This document shows positions 22,516-62,666 of a DNA stretch of 64,000 nucleotides, in pieces (the first letter of the stretch is position 1; the number at the start of each line of letters is the position of its first letter). The position numbers were made by a program, and so were the translations under genes. The stretch comes from Larus michahellis (taxonomy: Eukaryota; Chordata; Aves; Charadriiformes; Laridae). The stretch covers positions 91,930,215-91,994,214 of the forward strand of contig NC_133896.1 in assembly GCF_964199755.1 (NCBI RefSeq), given 5' to 3'. The notes beneath the pieces are model-generated. The model searched no databases. It was given only the letters and a program-made list of their open reading frames with translations, and was not told the origin of the DNA.

Positions 22516-26699
<4,184 letters not shown>

Positions 26700-28167: not shown

Positions 28168-28173
28168 TTTAAT
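28168..28173 (-). terminator. Candidate polyadenylation signal for the natriuretic peptide gene
   Basis: ATTAAA on the coding strand about 500 bases after the stop of the CNP-type gene; it is the first plausible hexamer downstream. No independent support. Confidence 0.35.
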
Positions 28174-28674: not shown

Positions 28675-30511
28675 CTAACACCCCAAACCACTGAAGGTCC
28701 CGATCCTGTCCAGTTTCAGCCCAAAGCAGCCCCTGGGCACAGCCTTCCAGGCCCAATCTCCAGGCAGTGCCCACTTGCGACTGGCGAGGGTCTTGCGCCA
28801 GAGAGAGGGACGGGCAGCTCTAGCCCCAGACGGGAGGAAGGGGAGGGTGGAGGAGAGAAACTGAGGGCCAAAGCTGGACCCCTCCTTTGTGTCCTCTTCG
28901 GCTGGCGTGGACTCAGGCTCCAGGGGCAGCAACTGGGAAAGGAGCATCTGGGATAAACAGAGAGGAGAGGGGGGAGTGAGAGCGGAGCTGCCTGTGTTCC
29001 TGGCGATAAGCCTTGTACCCCACCGCCCGCACCTTCCTGAGGGCTCAGGCAGGACATAAAATGGTGCCTGCACACAGGCGCTGTGCCTGTGACATTGCAT
29101 CCAGACGCTGGGAAGGGCTACACCAGCAGCTCCTGCAGGCTGAAATGATTTTGCTGCCCAGAAGAGCAGGCGGGCAGCTGCTGTGAGCCTCTGCCTGTGT
29201 GCAGATTGCCCTGCTCTTGTCAAACCGCGCCCCCCACCTCCATGCTTGGAAGGTAAGAGGCTTCAGTCCTTGCTCCTTTTGCTGATGCGGAGCACCTCCG
29301 TGTGCTCAAGCTGCTGTGCGGCATTTCTTTTTTTTCCAGAGGGCTGGTGGGGAGGATGGACCTGCCCCAAATACCTGCTGCTATGAAGGGGATGCAGGAG
29401 CAGAGCAGGTGTGAGGAATGGGGACTCCTCATCTGCTGGGAATGCTCTAGGTTATCTGTGGAGGCAGCGACACGCTGATTGTACCCCCCGGCACTGCCGG
29501 CAGCCTCCAGCTGTAGGGAGACAAGGGTTGGGAAGTACATTGGGCGCAGTGGAGGCATGGGCATGGCTGCCCAGGGAAGCAGCCTGCGGTAGCTGTTCCA
29601 CATCTGTCCCTCACGTGGATGCTGAGCTAAGGCTGAGGATGCCTTTGTGCAGCTCTTTTTGGTAGCGAGTTAATTGAAGCGGACACAGGCATCTTCAGTG
29701 AGGAGTGAAAGCGGTGAGTCATAGCAGGATGAGTCTTGTGATTGTAGTTCACGTCCTAACTACTTCCCTGTAACTTTCCCAGGGTGACGTGAAGGCAAGG
29801 TGTTGGGCCTCAGGTTAGGGTTTGGGTAAGAGGAAGCTGGGTAGATTTGAAAGCCAAAAGTGTTACTGCTGTAATTGCAGAGGATAAAAGATTCGCTTAA
29901 GTGAAGAAGCTGGCATCCTGACAGGGGCTCTTGGCCTTAAAGAGGGGCTACTGGGGGGTAGTATTGAGCTTAGGAGTGAAAATCCTGGCCTAACAGGATG
30001 CTTCTTCCCCCTGAAATGTCAGAACCAGGCATGATGAGGAACATGACCGTTAATTTCTGGTGGCTGCTGACACAGGGCAGAGTTAGACAGGACCAGTCTC
30101 TTTATCGTTAAAAGCCTCTGCGGGCAACATGGGGAGTCCCACAGGCAGCCTGCCCCAGGCCAGACAGCACTAAAAAGCATTTGTTCTGTCTGCCATCCGG
30201 TAATGCTGGTGCTCCTTAGGAGCTGGGTTATAAAGATGCAGCCGCTCTAGAGCCGAGGCTGTTGGACCGAATGGGAGGGAGCAGTGAGAATAGACAGCAG
30301 CCTCCTGTAGCTGGAATTTTGGACCCCGCCTCATTCCAGGTTCACACACGACCTCCCCAAATTGCCCCTCCACTCCTGAAACCACCCTCAGCTCTCTCCC
30401 AGTCCCTCCTACCTGTAGCCTCTGTCCTGGCAAGGACACAGTCTGAACGCTGGCAGAGAGCAGAACTAAGAGGAGGAGAAGCGAGCAAGGCCACGACTGG
30501 AGTCCCAGCAT
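28675..30511 (-). CDS. C-type natriuretic peptide precursor (NPPC-family paralogue)
   Basis: Secreted hormone precursor; C-type natriuretic peptides act on guanylyl-cyclase-coupled receptors (NPR-B). Two coding exons: 30413-30511 (33 codons) and 28675-28947 (90 codons plus TAG), joined in phase 0 by GTAGGA and TTATCCCAG. The precursor is 123 aa; human NPPC is 126. Residues 1-24 form a signal peptide (hydrophobic core CSLLLLLVLLSA). An acidic pro-segment follows (PLEPESTPAEED). A possible furin-type site RAAR is at 76-79 and basic pairs at 84-85 and 90-91. The C-terminal 17-residue disulphide ring CFGLKLDRIGTFSGLGC is at 107-123 with no residue after the last Cys, the mark of the C type. The ring has Thr-Phe where human CNP has Ser-Met. 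Whether it is the CNP-1 or another non-mammalian paralogue is not settled here; the symbol is left blank for that reason. Confidence 0.92.
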
Positions 30512-30594
30512 CTTCTTCTTAACCCAGGGCTTGTGGGAGGCGAGGCAGGACCTGCAGCATCCGTGTCAGATGTAGTCCCTAGTCCTTCTTTGCC

Positions 30595-30600
30595 TTTATA
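30595..30600 (-). promoter_or_regulatory. TATA box of the natriuretic peptide gene
   Basis: TATAAA on the coding strand (context AAAGCTATAAAGGCAAAG) lies about 84 bases before the ATG at 30,511, which predicts a start near 30,568 and a short 5' UTR. A TATA box suits a regulated, tissue-restricted hormone gene, in contrast to the CpG-island promoter of NCAPD2 and MRPL51. Confidence 0.75.
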
Positions 30601-35760: not shown

Positions 35761-38700
35761 TCAGCGCAACCGGCGGGCTGAAGATCTGGTGATGGGGGTT
35801 GTTTTGGTGGGGGTTTCTTCCTCTCTTAATTCTGCCGATAGCTCTAGAGAGAGTAAAATGTGTCAGTAACCAGCACACTACTGCCTTCAACAGAGACGTA
35901 CACAGGCAACATAGGCCGTGCTCTGAAGCCCTACCCTCCTTCTGCCCTTTCCCAAAGGAACATCCCTGTGGGGCCAAATCTACAGCCTTTCTCCAGTTTC
36001 ACCTTTTGAGCGTACAGGTACAATGCCTTACCGTCCTCAGAGCTGTTCTCCTCATCACTGGAGAAGGTGATAATGGCTTTTTTGCATGGAGGACGCTTTT
36101 GGGCACGCTTAGGGTTTCGGAGATTGCGAGGCTTGGGGGTGACAAAATCTTCATCCCTGTTGACTGTGTTCAGGGGATGGCGGCATGAACCTGCCAAGAA
36201 AAAAAAACACACACACAAAAAAAGGGAAAGGTAGCAGCCATTCTGTCTGTCAGGGTGAGGAAGAGTCCCTAGGTGTCTCTGCTGGACTGCAGGATCAGGG
36301 GGAAGGCTGCAGTCTCACAAAAGGAACATACCTCCTGTTGTTTTCTGCTTGGCTGGCTCTGGCATTGGAGTTCCACTACCTTCCTGGCATGTCTCTGCTG
36401 AATCCAGCCCTCGGTTATGGGAGGCAGCCAGCTTCTGCTCCAGTTCTTCAGCCAAAGCCTGATGGAGATGTAAGGGGGGGGGAGTGAAGGGGTGGGGAAG
36501 ACAGGGGGAAAGAAGTATTACATCCATAGCAGAATTGCCATCAGGTCCTCTGATAAATTGTCGGGGCCAAGGAGTAGCCTGCTTAATACAGAGAACTGCA
36601 GGGCTTTCCAATCACTGTGTGTTAAAAGCAGTTGTTTTCCTGGCCCGGCCACTTGCCCCCCATCCTTACTTTAGTCTCAGGTTTGCCGCCTGCTCTGCGG
36701 AATCGAGCCATCACAGTTTGGAAACAACTGTAGACAGCTGGGTCTTGGAGCTTGTCTGCAAAGCAGTCAAAGTTGTCCTGCAGCTTGTGAAGGCCCCGTT
36801 CTGAGAGGGGAAGCAGAGTAAGGCAGTGGGCCAGATCCCGATATTGACGCTCAGTTCTGGGAGAGACAGAGATTGCCATTAGCTCCTATGAAGAGGGATG
36901 TGTAAGGATGAGCCAAAAACTATGGCACATGAGGATAAAGCGTATCCTGCAGGTGCTTCTGCCCGGCGGAACATGAGATTCAGGTTGTTCTGTTACACAG
37001 TGCCATGCCATACCAACCACTTCACAACCGTCACCGTATTCCCCCAGACACTGACTTAGTGTCTGTCAGAAAAACACGAGGCTTCGCTGTTAAAGAATGC
37101 AGTCATTTGTTCAAAAAGCATCCAAAGTTATTGCCAACTATGATGAATATATGCGCTCAGTGAGGTGACGTCTCTTCTTGAAGGGCCTTATTTCAACTCA
37201 ATAGTAAAAAAACCCCTGGCTGCTCATTTTTGCATGTTTGAGATAGTCTCAAGCAAAGCTTTATTTGATGTTCTCTCTCTCTCTTTCCTGGGCAGTTACA
37301 GGCCAGTTACATAAAAGAAGGCCATTTTCATTAAGACATAAAGTGAACAAATAACAACAACTGTTTCAAAGGAGGACTACATTCAAATTCCAGCAAAAGT
37401 TATCGGGAAAAAAAGGCAAAAAAAATAATAAAAATCAGCAAACTAACATCCTTAATGTAGCTCACTGTGATGGAATAGAAGGAGAAAAAGCTCGGCCAAA
37501 GCCCCTATTATTCATATATACAAAGCAGAGGGCCAGAAGTCTGTCTTGCATATACCCTCTCAGAACGCACCGTCCAAATACAGACAGATGGAGAACAAAG
37601 CTGCAGCATCCAGGTGCTTCCACATTTTAGGTCTGAATGATACTTGCATTACTGCTAGCGTGCATTAAACTGATCATCTTTCTGGTACAGAAATATTAGG
37701 ACATTTTAGTAAAGGCTTACACACATCGTTTTTAACAAATGTGGTGTGAAGAGCTCACCAGTGTTCTTGGGAGGCAATTTTGGAGAGAGGGGCCACTCTC
37801 CACTCCGGTTTAGGAAAAAATATCCAAATATTTCTGGGGAACATGCAAATCCCTGAGGCAGCTGAGCAGGTCACATGCCCAGGCACTGTGTACAAATGGC
37901 CAAGATAAACAGACACAGCTTAAACCTCAAGGGCAAAGCCACAACGATGGAAAAGGAAAACCACAGGAATGGAGGAGGTGCACCAAAATGAAGATATCAC
38001 TGAAAGTACATGAAAGAGGCAGATAAATTTCTACTATCTCATTGGGAGGGGGTGGGGGGAAGTATACTTCTGTGTCAGTGAAGTTACAGCCTGGGGAAAG
38101 GAGCAACAAACACACCCACCCCAAAACCCAGGAAGCAAAATGATATCCAAGATTCATGGGATGGGTCCTGCGCTATATACTCTGTGATCAGCACCATGAG
38201 CCAGGTATGCCCATCTTGCAGAAGAGCAGAGCAGAGGCATAAATGTATAGTGGCACAGGCTCTCAAATAAGAAAACGGAGTCCCAGGCAGAGAGTTAGCA
38301 CTGAGCAGCCCACGCACGCGGAACAAGGACGGGCCTATATCAACTAGACAGTTGAGATCACCCCAGACAGGGAGCTCCCAACTTCTCAGTTGAACGCGCC
38401 TATTTCTTAGCTGAGATGCAAGGGAACAGCCTGTGGAGAAGGACCACGAAGGTGCATAAAACCCACACACGGGATGTCTCCTTGCTCAGCTGTAATGCAG
38501 ATCTAAATTGTCACAAAACCTTTTCCCTAAGAAAGGAGGGAAGGGAGAGGGGCCGATCACAGTGTAATGAGACCTGAAGCCTTAATTTATACATATTTAT
38601 TAATGAATTTTTAGGAGGAAGATGGGGGGGGGGGGGGGAAGGAACCTAATCTAGGTTATCTCAACATTTGTCACTTTGCCACATGAAAAATATGATGGGA

Positions 38701-41700: not shown

Positions 41701-44700
41701 TCTACGCCACAGTTAGGATCTGAGAGACGACTGATTATGTCTGGAAGCAGGTTATAGATGGCATTATCCTGTGCAGAATATAAGGTTCTACATGAGATAC
41801 AGAATTATGAAGGACAGCTCGAGTCAAGCCAAATAAGCTGCCCACTTAAAGTTACCTCCTTTCTCCCCACCCCGAATCTACTGATTGAAGACATCAGCTT
41901 TTCAAGATGAGCTGTACACAGCCAGCCAAACCTAAACTACTTGGCTGAAGCTAAGGGGGAAAAAAACCCCAACCAACTACACAAGCTAACAGCAACTGCA
42001 ACCCTTAGTTTGCAACAGCTCTGTTCTTTGGCAGGCTTGGATGCAGTTTCTTTGATTTCCAACCTTGTCACAACCCAACAAAAAAGCTTCCTGGTAAAGG
42101 AAACTTACACAGCAGTTCAGCTCAAGCAACTGTCTCCCATCTTGCCTGATAAAGCCCAATTCAGACTCCCCTTCCCACTACTTTTTCACGGTTTTGTCAT
42201 AGACACTGCAGAGGTAGGAAGTCAGCAGTCAGGTGGCCGGCTCTGCTTTTAACAGAGCAAGCCCAGTTGGTAAAGCCCCGGTATCACTGCAGCTTCTCAG
42301 GCAGCAAACCTCAAACTCTGAAGGGCCTGCAGCAGCCATCACGCTCAATGAACAGCACACAGGGGCTAATGCTACCACTGTTCTTGCTTGCTTGGGCTGC
42401 AACTGTTTCAATTTAAGGATCCTAATGTCACACAGCCAAGAGCAACTTTGAAAGGTTTCCCAGATGAGGCACTGCCTGAGCCATAAGGTCAGGGGACTCT
42501 GTTGTAAGGCCTGAAGGTAAACTGCAGAAAACCGTTCCCAACCCTGCGCTAGGCGTACACAAGAAAGCAAAGGGACAAGGCACTGGTTTGGAGCCTGCCT
42601 CTTGACGTGAATGGGTGAGGCCAAATTCAGCAACATCAGGGTTGAAACAAAACTCATGTTGCAAAATTTCCTTTATCTACCCTAATTTAGGCAACAAAGA
42701 GGAACAGACAGCTGCTCTACACCACTGACACACCTTCTCCAGGACTCAACTCTTGTGTCATTTACCCAGCCTCCACCAGCCCTCCCCCGCTCCTGTGAAC
42801 TAAGGTCCCTGAGCGTGCACTTGCCTTGCTGGAGAGTTCACTGAAGAAGTTCTGAGCCACTCCCATGATTGCCTCCTCTGGGTCTATAAGCAGAGTTGCC
42901 ATTTCGCTCACTTGGCCCTTCACCTTTACCATGTCTTTGAGGATGAGGTGAGTCATCACCAGTCCAGCCGTCTGCCTCACGCTTGGGCATGGGTCCCGCA
43001 ACCTGACAGAAGCATATAGTTATAGTTACCACAGAAAACAGCTGAGTATCTCCAAGTTAGTGATACGCATGACAGCCTATTCCACAGACCAGGTCTGTTG
43101 TCTCCCTGCAGTGACACCTTAAAATTGGTTCATTTGGTTTCCTGGATCATTCCCACCTTCCGGAGGCCCAGTGTCACCCTTCCACAGAGCTCTCATCACC
43201 CGTCCTCTGCCAGCAATGAGTGTAGCATTACCTGGCATAGAGATGTGATGTCCAAGGCTCCACCAGGTTGGGGAAACGGATGGCCAGATCTCCTGCTGCA
43301 ATAACGAGGTTGGATCTCACACCAGGCAGAGTGGACTTCTCCATCATGGTGAACAGCAGGCGCAAGTGGGAGTCACAGAACTCAGAGCTGACAGGACAGG
43401 GTACAGAAAAGAAGGCATAGATACCAAAATCCCATCTCTCAGAGAGCAGCGAGACAAAAAAAAAAAAAAAAAAAAATCAAATCTATGAACGCTCTTTTGT
43501 GTTTTGTTCTCTCCACAGGAAAGGAGTTGCAATGTTTGCTTGTGCCTTAGGACTAGGAAGGCTGGGAAGAGAACGCCAGCAGGGCTAGACATTACCTGAT
43601 CATGCAGACTTTGCCAAGAGCGAGGGCTGCAGCAGCTGAGAGGGCTGGATCACTGTAGAGCCCAGGGTTGTTGCAGATCTTGAGCACCAGTGGAACAAAG
43701 GCAGAGAACAGGTGCTTCTCTAGAGAACAGGGACGAAGACAGCAATGATGCAAGCACTGTTTGTGCATCTCACTTTAAGAACAATTACTCAATTTATCCC
43801 AGAACTTCTGCAGACCATAGAAACTGGTTGACTCACTTTCACCATTGAAAAACCACCTCCAGGGAGGCACAGCAAAGAAACAGACAGCCTACATAGAAAC
43901 TGGCACCGGGCAAAAAATGACAGTATTTCCTTCTGAAGCAAACAGCCTTCCTCCTGGGCCTGTTACCCACCACACCTCTTCTTTCACACAGGCAGACAGA
44001 GCCAGTGCTCCTCAGTGGCAGCCACACTTACCATCTAGAAGTTCTGTCTCACAAATACTGCGGATGAGTTCAGCTTCTGTGTCATCAGCTGAGGCTCCCA
44101 CAAGGCCCAGCTCTTCCTCCATAGTGGTCTCATTTCCTGTGCTCTGTGCAGAAAGGAAGGCTATAAAAAGGACGACAGGCAACAATAACCCCTTCCTTCA
44201 CAAAGTACTCTTCTCTTGGGCGAGAGGTGCATACATGTTACCAGCAGCACAACTAGAGTTGAGAACAACAGGCTGATGGAGAGTTTTAAAACCCACTTTT
44301 CCCCAAGAACTGAATGGAAATGTGAAGGATAGTCCGGGATTTGCCAGTCCACGTGCCACAGATCATCAATGAAACGAAAGCCTAGGCTACTAAGCTGAGA
44401 CAGACATAGGACACATCTGGCATCGATGCCCAAGTACAGCACAACTTAAAGAACACTCAAATCCTAAAAGCATGAAGTTCAAAGTGGACTTTGAGTTCCT
44501 GGTCTTCTGAGCAAGACCACAGAAAACCTTATAGCAAGGCAAAAGCAACACAAGGGAAGAAGAGAGACATGAGTGTTGCACGGGGACCAAATCTGCATCC
44601 AGCTTCTGCTTCTTGGAAAATCTCATAGGAACCTCCTCCTGTGCGGGAAATGGTAGTGACACCGATAAGCAGGGCAGATGAGGAAACGAACTACAGATTT

Positions 44701-56700: not shown

Positions 56701-59700
56701 AGCCTTAGTATATCTAGTGAGGGTGATGTTTTCCCATGCCAACGTCCAAAAAGAGCTTGCATACTGCACTCTTCCTTCTAGTCTGTCCTGATAATAAAGA
56801 GCAGTGTTTAATTTGTGTTCCCCAGTTCCCTCACCCCCAGGACCTTTGGTCTCTTGGGAAAAAGGAATTGCAGATGCCACGGTACCCAGGGACAATACCT
56901 TTCTCTGTTAAATTTCAGTCTCTGCAAACGAAGAGCAGGGTGACAGAAACTCCCTTACAAAAGACAACGGGGGAAGTGACGACTGAGACAACACCATTTC
57001 CCCAGCACAGACTTGCCTTGCGCTGAACGATTCGAGTGAAAAGCTGCAGCACACGGCTGCGCACAAAGCCATTGATGTCACAGATGTGGGCCTGCAGCAT
57101 ATTCAGGAACTGGTCCCGAGTACCACGGGCAACTTCCTCCAGCTTGTCACCATTCAGCACCTGTGTCAGCACTTCTGCCATAGCCGCCAGAATGGCATTT
57201 CGCATCATATAACTCTGCAAAAGGAAGAGTTGTTGAGCCAGGAACAGACAAAAAGAGATGACTTGATGTGCCAAGGGGAAGGCTGGCCCAGAGTTCGGGC
57301 CTTCTAAGCCCAGGCTCCAGCCTTAAGTGAATTTCTCCATTATGGAGTTTGTATTAACCTTGGGTGAGTGTGGCTGTGCCTGCAAGACAGAGCAATCCAA
57401 CCCTTCTATCCAGCTGGGTCCACAGAAGCCAAGAACTGATATCAGAAACACTCATGGCTTTTAAGGGCAGTTTAAAAAAAGGTAACACAATGACAAACTC
57501 ATTAAGTACTGAAGAACGAGGGATAACAGCTGGGATGTCAGTAAGCAGACCAGTAAGCAGTCTCCCGTTCTCTGATATCTGGGAGTGACAGCCAAACAGT
57601 AGATGTCATGGTTTCTGTTTGCTTTTCATCTTTTAGGTAAGGGCAGAACCTATTCCGAAGGACAGGTTTTGACAATCGATCTCTATGAAAGAGGTTCTGT
57701 TTTCAAACAGAAAAACTGGATAACTGGATAGCAGCACCTCCATCGCTCGACTTCTCCAGACAGGTAATTATGTGGAAATGTACCTCCCCATCCAAGTGAC
57801 GCAGGAGAACGCTCATGTTGGATAACACCAGAGCTGGAATCCGTTCAGACAGTTCAGTTATAAAGGTAGCATAACCTTTGACTCCAGAAGTATCACGAGC
57901 CAGATCCTGCGGAGATTTCTGTCCAATTTCCCTGCACAGAAAGATGAAACAAGGAATAGGGTGCCTCAAATTGCTAAGGATAGAAAGACAACCCTTGGGG
58001 TGTTTTTCTCACCTTAGCAATTCGCCCACCAGGCTCTTCAGACCATACTCTGTAGCCCAGAGGCTCACAGCCTGCGCAAACACTGGGGCTACATGTTCAA
58101 AGTGCTGCAGCATCTGCGTGATCTTCAGAGTGGCACCTTTTGCATGTGAGGAAGAAGAAAAAGGTCAGGGAAAGTAACTGGGAATGGCTTCAGGAAGAAG
58201 GTAGAACAGGAACTCACTGAACATGTGATCATAATGAACCAGAGCTGCAGCAAGTAGATGTGTCACAGCCTCCCGTGTGGCCCGGTGCTTCTGAAGACCG
58301 ATACTTGGATTCTCCAGGATACGGTAGCAGCTTCCTGTCATTAAGCTAAAGCCACAGAACAGAGATGGTCAACCTCAGCATCACAACTTGCACCAACATC
58401 ATTCGATGCACTGCACTAGACAAACATTTCTCTCAAACCAGAGAGATCATAGAATCATAGATTCATTTAGGTTGGAAAAGAGCCTTGGGATCATCGAGTC
58501 CAACCATCAGCTCCACTCTACAAAGTTCTCCCTTACACCATATCCCTTAACACCACATCTAAACGAGTCTTAAACACATTCAGGGATGGTGACTCCACCA
58601 CCTCCCTGGGCAGCCTATTCCAGTGTCTGACCACTCTTTCTGTGAAGAATTTTTTCCTAATGTCCAGTCTAAACCTGTTGCAAATGTCCAGTCTAAACCT
58701 ATCCTGTTTCAGCTTGAACCCAATACCTCTTGTTCTATCGCTAATTACCTGTGAGAAGAGACCAGCACCAACCTCTCTACAATGTCCTTTCAAGTAGTTG
58801 TAGAGAGTGAAGAGGTCTCCCCTCAGCCTCCTCTTCCTCAAACTAAACAGTCCCAGCTCCTTCAGTCACTCCTCGTAAGATTTATTCTGCAGGCCCTTCA
58901 CCAGCTTCGTTGCCCTGCTCTGCACTCGCTCCAGCACCTCGATATCTCTCTCATACTGAGGTGCCCAGAACTGGACACAATACTCAAGGTGTGGCCTCAC
59001 CAGTGCTGAGTACAGGGCGACAATCACCTCCCTCCTTCTGCTGGTCACACTATTTCTAATACAAGCCAGGATGCCATTGGCCCTCTTGGCCACCTGGGCA
59101 CACTGCTGGCTCATGTTCAGCCGCTTGTCAATTAGAACCCCCGGGTCCTTTTCTGCCAGGCAGCTCTCCAGCCACACTTCCCCAAGGCTGTAGTGATGCA
59201 TGGGGTTGTTGTGGCCCAAGTGCAGGACCTGGCACTTGGCCTTGTTGAAGCTCATACTGTTAGCATTGGCCCATCAGTCCAATCTATCCAAGTCTCTCTG
59301 TAGAGCCTCCCTATCCCCATGCATATCAACACTCCCACTTAACTTGGTGTCATCTGCAAACTTACTGATGATACACTCTATGTCCTTATCAAGATCATCA
59401 ATAAAGACATTAAACTGACCCCTGAGGAACACCACTTGTGACCAGCTGCCAGCTGGATTTAACTCCATTGACCACCACTCTTTGTGACCGTCCATCCAGC
59501 CAGTGCTTGATCCAGCAGATCATATGCTCATCCAGGCCATGAGCAGCCAGTTTTTCCATGAGGATTCTATGGGGAACAGTGTCAAATGCTTTTTGAAAGC
59601 CTAGGTAGACAATATCCACAGCCTTTCCCTCGTCCAGTAATCGGGTCATCTTGTCATAGAAGGAGATCAGATTCTTCGGTATCCTTAAAAAAACTGATCA

Positions 59701-62666
59701 AGCAACATCTGAATTTGAGAGGCCTACATGAGGAAAGGAAGTGGTTCCTAAACACATTGCTTTTGCCTCAAGATGGCTTCCTCAGCTTCCCAGCGATCTG
59801 CACCCTACAGAGGGCTGTAATACCACATCACTGGCAGATATAACATTTAACTCTCCCTTCCAGAAGATCACTATCACCCATCCCACCTCTAGATTGGCTG
59901 GATGGTGACATCCACAGGCTAGTGGTCAACAGCCCAATATCTAGATGGAGATCAGTGACAAGTGGTATCCCTCGGGTCTGTATTGGGACCAGTACTGTTT
60001 AATATCTTCATCAAAGACATAGACAGTGGGATCAAGTGCACCCTCAGAAAATTTGTGGACATCAAGCTGAGTGGTGCAGTTGACATGCCTGAGGGACCGG
60101 ATGCTATCCAGAGGGACGTGGACAAGCTCAAGAAGGGGGCCCATGTGAACCTCATGAAGTTCAACAAAGCCAAGTGCAGCGTGCTGCACCTGGGTCATGG
60201 CAACTCCTGGTATCAATACAGGTTGGGAGATGAAGCGATTGAGAGCAGCCCTGTGGAGAAGGACTTGGAGGTACTGGTGGATGAAAAGCTGGACGTGACC
60301 CAGCAATGTGCACTTGCAGTCCAGAAAGTAAATTGTATCCTGGGTTGCATCAAAAGCAGCATGGCCAGCACATCAAGGGAGGTGATTCTGCCACTCTACT
60401 CTGCCCTGGTGAGACCCCACCTGGAGTGCTGCATCCAGCTCTGGAGCCCTCAGCACAGGAAGGACATGGACCTGTCGGAGCAGGTCAAGAGGGCCACAAA
60501 AATGACCGGAGGCCTGGAGCACCTCTCCTATGAGGACAGATTGAGACAGTTGGGGTTGTTCAGCCTGGAGAACAGAAGACTCCACGGAGACTTTATTGCG
60601 GCCTTTCACTACTTAAAGGGGACTTGTAAGAAACACGGGGACAGACTTTTTAGCAGGGCTTGTTGTGACAGTCCAACGGTAGTGGTTTTAAACTAAAAGA
60701 GGGTAGATTTAGACTAGATATAAGAAAGAAATTTTTTTACAATGAGGGTGGCGAGACACTGGAACACGTTGCCCAGAGAGGTGGTAGATGCCCCATCCCT
60801 GCAAACGTTCAAGGTCAGGTTGGACGGGGCTCTGAGGAACCTGATCTAGTTGAAGACGTCCCTGCTCATTGCAGTGGGGTCGGACTAGATGACCTTTAAA
60901 GGTCCCTTCCAACCCAAACTATTCTATGATTCTACATCCACTACATCCTATACCTGACAAACTCTTCTTCCACCACCAAACCACCCCAAAGCTGACGGAG
61001 ATCCAGCTGCAGCAGCTGCGTGAGCAGTTGTAAAAGTGGCTCCCTCTCCTCTTCCCATGAAGATTGAGCGGTCTTGGTACGGTTTTTCTTGTTCTAGAAA
61101 AAAGATTACATGATACGATACACCAGCAGCTTAACAACAGAAAAAACACCGCCACCCTGACTCCCTCAAAAAAAGAAAATGACTGTTAAATTCTGCAGCA
61201 TTAAGAGACATACAGAGAGATGTATGAGAAGCTTATATGCCCACATCAAACGACCACTGCTGTCATCTTTGACCACAGAAGAGAACTTGAGAAATTACTG
61301 GCACACTAAATGTTTAGACACGTATTGTCCCTTTGGCTCTTTTCCATGTAGTCTCACAGAAATCTCAGTACTCCACATTATGCACTGCTCTTGATGGCAT
61401 CATGTTTAAATAAACCCAGCTATAACATCTGATAGATACTACAGAGTTCAGCAAGCTTACATGTTTTCTACTTTTATCATCTTATTTTCCCCCCAGTCCC
61501 CTCACCTACCTTCCCACCAGGATCCACCTCCAACAAACTATTATTGCAGGTTTCCATTTCAAAGGCATCCATCAGGCCAGTCAGCAAATAGCAGTTCATC
61601 TTGAGAGCATTGAGGTGTGCACTGCGGTCTGCATGGCTCAACTCAGAATCACCCAAGATGGCAGGAAGTTCATTGGAATGTTTGGACACCACTGAAGAGA
61701 GGTAGAAAGCCATGAGCACTCCTTGCCAGACCCCTCAGCCATCCTCTCTTTTGGAGACTTCTTTTGGAGCAGTCATCAGATTACCAAAGACGTGTGCTCA
61801 CATCTCACCAGCTGTAACACGGGCTACTCCCTGCAACCCAAACCTTGGAAACGCTGTCTTATCCTATTCCCACAGCCCCCTGTCAGCTCAAAGAAACACT
61901 CACTCAGAGCTGATGCATCCCAAAGATGTACTTTCCAGGGACGCAGGGAAGGGGATTTTCTGTCGGCCTGCCCTTACAGCAAACACGCACAGCTCTGCAT
62001 TGTCCACCAAGATTACAGACCCGTATTACTGGAATGGGCTGAGGGTGCAACCCAGCTGGTCAAGTCACATTAGCCTTTATATCATCATCGAACTGCCAGA
62101 GGAGAGCAACCTCTCTATTACTCCTGCTTCAGCTGGAAACAACGGATACCCACCCTGCATCATCAGCTCCAGGGCATCCTCCTTGACAGCAGTCTGCACA
62201 GCTCGGAAGTGGCTGCAGGGCAAACACAGTGTGTGAGGGCAGCGAGTAAAGGCCATAGGGAGAGGCATGAGTGCCCGGGCGCCCCAGTCTCTCCTCAACC
62301 CTCCTCTCCACCCGCTTCATTCCCAGTGTCCCTGGCTCCGCGTTCGCCGCTCTGTACTCACTGGAGCAAGCTGTAGAGGGGGTCGAAGTGCTGCAGCACT
62401 GCCAGCGCGCCCCGCGCCCGGAAGGCGGTTCGGAAAGCTGCGGGGAAATACGGAGAGGGGGCGAGAGGGGGACGCAGTCACAGCCGTGAGCGGGCGGTGG
62501 GAGCGGGTCAGGCCGGGAGAGGTGGTGGTGGGAAGGCCTTACCTGTGAGGGCGGGCGGCAGCTCGCGGACGGTCAGCACCTCCCGCACCACGTAGCGCCC
62601 AGGGCCGCCATCCCGCAGCAGGTCGGCCGGAGCGAAGGGCAAGTGGAACTCCCAGGCCACCGCCAT
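35761..62666 (-). CDS. NCAPD2: Condensin I complex subunit D2 (non-SMC)
   Basis: HEAT-repeat subunit of condensin I, which compacts mitotic chromosomes; binds the kleisin NCAPH. Coding exons: 62543-62666, 62362-62437, 62154-62212, 61510-61691, 60954-61093, 58218-58345, 58013-58136, 57784-57931, 57017-57214, 56355-56489, 55719-55803, 54896-55070, 54508-54629, 53332-53541, 51210-51384, 49444-49528, 49160-49293, 47643-47775, 46023-46107, 45758-45919, 45295-45512, 44032-44143, 43596-43719, 43232-43387, 42825-43002, 41674-41768, 38792-38872, 36670-36856, 36332-36458, 36032-36190, 35761-35843. All phases agree: 4200 bases, 1399 aa (human 1401). Start [11 protein letters not shown]. Condensin blocks include [48 protein letters not shown] and [20 protein letters not shown] (about residue 1110). 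The acidic/basic tail holds [10 protein letters not shown] and [11 protein letters not shown], a likely nuclear signal. Introns 9 and 25 use GC donors. The large introns (38.9-41.7, 49.5-51.2 and 51.4-53.3 kb) show only low-complexity sequence. Confidence 0.98.
38624..38638. repeat. G homopolymer, 15 bases
   Basis: Uninterrupted G run in NCAPD2 intron 27 (C run on the transcript strand). Such runs are prone to length error in sequencing and assembly. Confidence 0.9.
42819..42824 (-). promoter_or_regulatory. NCAPD2: Non-canonical GC splice donor, NCAPD2 intron 25
   Basis: Exon 25 ends CTCTCCAGCAAG and is followed by GCAAGT in place of GTAAGT. The next exon begins GATAATGCCATC after TGCACAG at 41,768, and the join restores the frame (SSK then [12 protein letters not shown]). 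The rest of the donor fits consensus perfectly, as is normal for GC-AG introns. Confidence 0.88.
43456..43476. repeat. A homopolymer, about 21 bases, NCAPD2 intron 23
   Basis: On the transcript this is a U run in the 208-base intron between exons 23 and 24, about 68 bases upstream of the exon 24 acceptor's far side. A similar A run of about 20 bases occurs at 51,159 in intron 15. Simple repeats only. Confidence 0.8.
48406..48421. repeat. CA microsatellite
   Basis: Eight CA units in NCAPD2 intron 17. Possible polymorphic marker. Confidence 0.9.
56590..56700 (-). mobile_element. Old, diverged CR1-like 3' fragment
   Basis: TAGATTCATAGAAAAGTCTA followed by GGTCTGAAGGGACCTCTGGA and TCTTCTGGTCCAATCTCTG resembles an antisense CR1 tail of an older subfamily. 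The right boundary is unclear and similarity fades after about 56,700. It lies in NCAPD2 intron 9. Confidence 0.6.
57011..57016 (-). promoter_or_regulatory. NCAPD2: Non-canonical GC splice donor, NCAPD2 intron 9
   Basis: Exon 9 ends GTTCAGCGCAAG and is followed by GCAAGT. The next exon starts GCCCTGCCTTTG after GTGTGCTAG at 56,489, giving RIVQRK then [11 protein letters not shown] in frame. Using the nearest GT (four bases further) would break the frame. Confidence 0.9.
58446..59690 (-). mobile_element. CR1 LINE, 5'-truncated, with reverse transcriptase remnants
   Basis: The element reads on the minus strand; its 3' tail is at 58,446 (ATCATAGAATCATAGATTCA on the plus strand). Broken frames encode reverse-transcriptase pieces of CR1 ORF2: [19 protein letters not shown] and [10 protein letters not shown] (59,410-59,649), then [17 protein letters not shown] with the catalytic Asp pair kept (59,274-59,495), then the thumb and C-terminal part (58,866-59,255). 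Stops and frameshifts separate them, so it is inactive. It lies in NCAPD2 intron 5, in the same orientation as the host gene. Confidence 0.93.
59938..60937 (+). mobile_element. CR1 LINE, 5'-truncated, opposite orientation
   Basis: Sense CR1 from reverse-transcriptase palm to 3' tail (TTCTATGATTCTACATCC). One frame stays open for 244 codons at 59,962-60,696 ([19 protein letters not shown], then [17 protein letters not shown], then [19 protein letters not shown]). The usual FADD catalytic box reads KFVDIKLSG, with the Asp pair lost, so the protein would be dead. It lies antisense to NCAPD2 and tail-outward relative to the neighbouring copy. It is less eroded than the copy at 58.4 kb. Confidence 0.93.
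61768..62097 (-). ncRNA. SCARNA10: Small Cajal body RNA 10 (U85), composite C/D-H/ACA
   Basis: Guide RNA for U5 snRNA modification in Cajal bodies, hosted in NCAPD2 intron 3 (61,692-62,153). In transcript order: terminal stem GCAGT (62,096-62,092), C box ATGATGA (62,088-62,082), H-box-like AGAAAA (61,961-61,956), two CAB-type TGAG motifs (61,906-61,899), ACA (61,815-61,813), guide, D box CTGA (61,779-61,776), and closing stem ACTGC (61,773-61,769), exactly complementary to the first. The guide TCTTTGGTAAT next to the D box pairs with the U5 loop 1 region, and its fifth base from the D box is a G opposite U5 C45, the known U85 target. Span 330 nt equals my recollection of human U85. It ends about 76 bases before the acceptor, the usual spacing. 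Human SCARNA10 is also inside NCAPD2. Confidence 0.9.

Follow-up and report, generated by a model that had tools for sequence, protein, structure and literature searches.

The window analysed here, a stretch of 64,000 nucleotides of the Larus michahellis genome, carries on its minus strand a gene for a natriuretic peptide precursor of 123 amino acids, encoded in an open frame by positions 30511-30413 joined to 28947-28675. The coding part of the first exon (30413..30511) starts with the ATG at 30511 and provides 33 codons for the putative signal peptide, judged by eye from the hydrophobic run LLLLLVLL at residues 11-18, and for the beginning of the propeptide; it ends in phase 0 after -RLQ and is followed by a GT donor at 30412. 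The intron (28948..30412, 1465 nt) is of the GT...AG type, with a 3' end rich in pyrimidines. The coding part of the second exon (28675..28947), preceded by the AG acceptor, comprises propeptide, possible cleavage sites, the 17-residue ring CFGLKLDRIGTFSGLGC (28678..28728, residues 107-123) and the stop codon. The latter, a TAG ending at 28675, directly follows Cys123, so that the C-terminal tail is absent, as is characteristic of the CNP type. Thus, the two-exon structure, the exon junction and the C-terminal ring ending in Cys proposed in the initial annotation were all located where it had placed them. The TATA box that it had also reported was found as TATAAA at 30595..30600 (minus strand, first letter at 30600), 89 nt 5' of the ATG and just beyond the range 28675..30511. 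Between the two lies an upstream ATG at 30560 opening a 13-codon reading frame (30519..30560, minus strand; frame assigned by eye), which ends before the main ATG, and a candidate polyadenylation signal, ATTAAA, is found 502 nt past the stop codon (28168..28173, minus strand).

The position of the gene between GAPDH and NCAPD2, as originally described, is borne out by Pfam and PDB matches for both neighbours, the name NCAPD2 being given by position. Downstream, on the same strand, the GAPDH coding region with its introns extends over 22516..25772 (end points by eye), identified by PF02800 (E 1.1e-20) and by GAPDH chains in the PDB (best E 3.1e-28); its start codon, also placed by eye, lies about 2.9 kb past the CNP stop. 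Upstream, again on the minus strand, an open frame (42765..43019) containing one exon of a condensin subunit 1 gene matches PF12717 (65.9 bits, E 5.7e-18; one exon only) as well as four condensin sequences of the PDB, while a frame at 35934-36314, which resembles the NCAPD2 C-terminus by eye, had no match in Pfam or PDB. The Pfam scan of the neighbours covered ten stop-free open frames picked by eye, half of which (numbers 4, 5, 7, 8 and 9) matched nothing; among the five that matched, two fell short of the curated cut-off, namely Gp_dh_N, which scored 27.3 where 31.7 is required, and a second Cnd1 piece, which scored 21 where 26.4 is required. A snoU85 RNA gene (138.8 bits) was also detected at 61771-62093 of the window on the minus strand, and the human relative of this U85 small nucleolar RNA presumably sits in NCAPD2. 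On the NCAPD2 side there is, in addition, a reverse transcriptase fragment (59413-59697, minus strand; PF00078, E 4.4e-8), a LINE remnant which we take to be CR1-like.

The membership of the gene in the natriuretic family is well supported. Precursor residues 103-123 score 46 bits with the Pfam ANP family (PF00212), for which the cut-off is 27, and the best PDB match of the precursor is human CNP (1jdp, E 8.4e-6). The ring, with 17 residues from Cys to Cys, has the family form CFGxxxDRI..SGLGC. When the whole genome (1.405 Gb in 616 contigs, the window belonging to the 224-Mb contig C1 and the gene to C1:91.96 Mb) was searched with the PF00212 profile, the locus beside GAPDH was recovered with E = 4.2e-9, which rules out a chance match. 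Of the 32 candidates scored in the same search, five reached E <= 0.001: the present gene, an NPPC-type gene on contig C10 (L003/L010) and, on contig C20, a CNP-3 (L001), a BNP (L002) and an ANP-like gene (L005), these labels having been assigned from sequence. The phase-0 intron after Leu-Gln is common to the gene beside GAPDH, CNP-3 and the ANP-like gene, that is, to the two of its four paralogues in this genome for which the boundary was determined, and the presence of an intron at the family position rules out a retrocopy. Outside the ring, the precursor can barely be aligned to its own paralogues.

The ring was compared with eight others, nine rings in all, five from this genome and four from the PDB. 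It is identical to human CNP and to the NPPC type of the same genome at 15 of 17 residues, and to its CNP-3 at 14. The Thr-Phe pair occupies ring positions 11-12 and is absent from the eight other rings, where position 11 is Ser or Ala and position 12 is L, Q, M, H, V or S. The residues named as important for ANP in PMC10095932 (Phe2, Arg8, Ile9 and Leu15) are kept, and position 6 is Leu, as in the three other CNPs compared, versus Met in ANP. In a full-text literature search, the string with the Thr-Phe pair, KLDRIGTFSGLGC, was not found, the seven matches all carrying the human string.

It had been suggested that this pair may alter receptor preference, a proposal which the evidence does not directly support. 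According to PMC10095932, ring residues 4-6 and 10-12 are the most variable, and ANP activity is not significantly changed when single residues at ring positions 11-12 are replaced by Ala or Gly. There is thus no indication of a strong receptor shift, since these positions vary within the family and are reported as tolerant in ANP. The same paper has Gln18 of ANP (ring position 12) entering a shallow NPR-A cavity. A modest effect of Thr-Phe is therefore still conceivable, and the pair, which lies in a tolerant part of the ring, probably alters affinity only modestly.

The region preceding the ring differs from that of other CNPs, as had been noted, and in a way on which the initial annotation was silent. 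In both CNP-3 and NPPC of this genome, a Lys-Lys pair is followed by five residues and the first ring Cys (KKGLSRG-C and KKGLGKG-C, respectively), whereas the gene beside GAPDH has WKAVPRG. The Lys-Lys site which frees the 22-residue CNP, a usual though not strictly required feature of CNPs, is thus replaced by Trp100-Lys101. The remaining dibasic pairs are Arg84-Lys85 and Arg90-Lys91, the second being the nearest upstream of the ring. There is also an Arg-Ala-Ala-Arg at residues 76-79, followed by Pro; poor cleavage is expected of such a site. With Lys-Lys lost, the shortest product of dibasic cleavage would be an N-extended CNP of 32 residues (residues 92-123; 28678..28773, minus strand): the dibasic scan predicts a cut after residue 91 to give WALPGDWAWKAVPRG plus the ring, a Trp-rich peptide. 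Cleavage after the single Lys101 is possible. The loss of Lys-Lys is more likely than Thr-Phe to be the functional difference of this gene.

The same changes could be read in another way, namely as relaxed constraint on a recently silenced copy, in which the frame is open and the gene is no longer expressed or processed. The loss of the usual Lys-Lys, a ring pair absent from eight other rings and a divergent propeptide would all fit such a history. Against it stand the open frame and the intact splice sites, TATA box and polyadenylation candidate, together with the conservation of the ANP-important ring residues and of Leu at position 6, and silencing is accordingly considered improbable. The hormone gene is real and probably working.

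With regard to the origin of the gene, the initial annotation regarded it as probably one of the extra CNP paralogues, and the genomic arrangement agrees with this: an NPPC-type gene and a CNP-3 cluster exist separately, and CNP1 is listed in birds. The CNP-3, BNP and ANP-like genes lie within 14 kb (C20:6.50-6.51 Mb), and the locus beside GAPDH, apart from both NPPC and this cluster, shares a paralogon with the latter. The CHD N-terminal family has four matches in the genome, one on C1 (91.90 Mb, about 61 kb from the CNP-1-type ring), one on C20 (9.54 Mb) and two on C122. Enolase has 16, of which five are on C1 (91.57 Mb, about 0.38 Mb from the CNP-1-type gene), five on C20 (5.03 Mb), five on C37 and a weak one on C10. 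The pairing of C1 with C20 by two unrelated families supports an old block duplication. Neither C37 nor C122, contigs which may both be incomplete, had a natriuretic match in the PF00212 genome search, and in this sense CNP-2 was not seen.

Some features of the C20 cluster are worth recording. The BNP gene is presumably of the type found in chicken. In an excerpt of PMC8626375, that type is assigned in common to chicken, parrot, tortoise and crocodile, while snakes differ. The ANP-like gene lies between BNP and CNP-3 (C20:6501717-6504800, with its ring at C20:6503217-6503300 on the minus strand), and its best PDB match is ANP (3n57, E 8.6e-7) versus 0.004 for CNP. Nppa is described as lost in birds in the relevant passages of PMC5940360 and PMC5852170, and a renal natriuretic peptide is mentioned for chicken and given as not found in zebra finch in those of PMC2873334; the ANP-like gene may be a retained ANP or this renal natriuretic peptide. 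Finally, a long, low-complexity pyrimidine-rich tract (L009) was seen by eye on the plus strand 5' of CNP-3 exon 1, at about C20:6511900-6512530.

The ring codons bear on the age of the gene. Compared with NPPC, 13 of the 17 codons differ, and 11 of these differences are synonymous (neutral mean 2.5, with 0 of 20,000 runs reaching 11), and compared with CNP-3, 11 differ, eight of them synonymously (neutral mean 2.7, with 25 of 20,000 runs reaching 8), figures which come from a simple neutral model, reflect constraint since the old duplication with both branches pooled, and involve an NPPC copy that is GC-rich. Differences that are mostly silent speak for old age, with the caveat of differences in codon usage. 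A lineage-specific duplicate, that is, a transposed copy of NPPC or CNP-3 in place of an old CNP-1 locus, appears very improbable: the ring is indeed closest to NPPC, and the zebra finch paper (PMC2873334), in the passage concerned, calls CNP1 an avian-specific duplication, but the C1-C20 pairing is what an old block duplication should leave, the silent codon differences, within the caveat given, indicate age, and the retained intron excludes a retrocopy.

The preferred reading is that this intact gene encodes a C-type natriuretic peptide, very likely of the CNP-1 type, and that it goes back to an ancient duplication of the CNP-3/BNP/ANP locus and was retained beside GAPDH. Fish and bird CNP-1 (nppcl, NPPC1) is alike in its tail-less ring and in a locus apart from NPPC and CNP-3. 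NPPC itself (mammalian CNP, of CNP-4 type) shares the tail-less ring with the present gene and differs in locus and in the residues before the ring, whereas CNP-3 shares the intron position and differs in being clustered with BNP and the ANP-like gene. The corresponding section of PMC10454581 describes CNP-1 to CNP-4 in zebrafish, where CNP-1 has exactly the human ring and a predicted 22-residue peptide, in contrast to the Thr-Phe ring and the lost 22-residue cut site found here.

As regards birds, CNP1 is entered in PMC2873334 both for zebra finch (gene 100226912) and for chicken (A9CDT5), with the statement that avian genomes are the only ones in which it was found. The locus beside GAPDH is likely to be this published avian CNP1, to which it was matched by listing; the sequence is new and the gene type is already listed for birds. 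In the excerpted text of PMC4992253, four CNPs are derived from chromosomal duplications, with NPPC1, NPPC2 and NPPC3 lost in tetrapods, a loss which conflicts with that listing and with the CNP-1 of the present genome. The literature search yielded no bird CNP1 sequence, no fish CNP-1 map position and no synteny link to snake venom natriuretic genes, and NCAPD2 was absent from the 40 papers listed among 628 matches; the parts of PMC10253422, PMC8215749 and PMC4967230 concerned contained nothing decisive.

If the gene works as its organization suggests, the precursor would be secreted, a disulfide would join residues 107 and 123 and so close the ring, and a convertase would cut after Arg90-Lys91, freeing a peptide of about 32 residues. 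By analogy with other tail-less CNPs, this peptide may raise cGMP locally through GC-B (NPR-B), a guanylyl cyclase receptor. More tentatively, and with the odds rather against it, the CNP linked to GAPDH in this lineage might have become a longer hormone, Trp-rich and N-extended to 32 residues, with changed clearance or receptor behaviour in addition to its Thr-Phe ring.

For the family, the locus provides a chromosome-placed example of a CNP-1-type gene and of the paralogon which it forms with the CNP-3/BNP/ANP cluster. Otherwise, it contributes one more sequence of a kind of gene for which bird listings already exist, and the possible change in hormone processing, which is testable, is the one feature worth pursuing.
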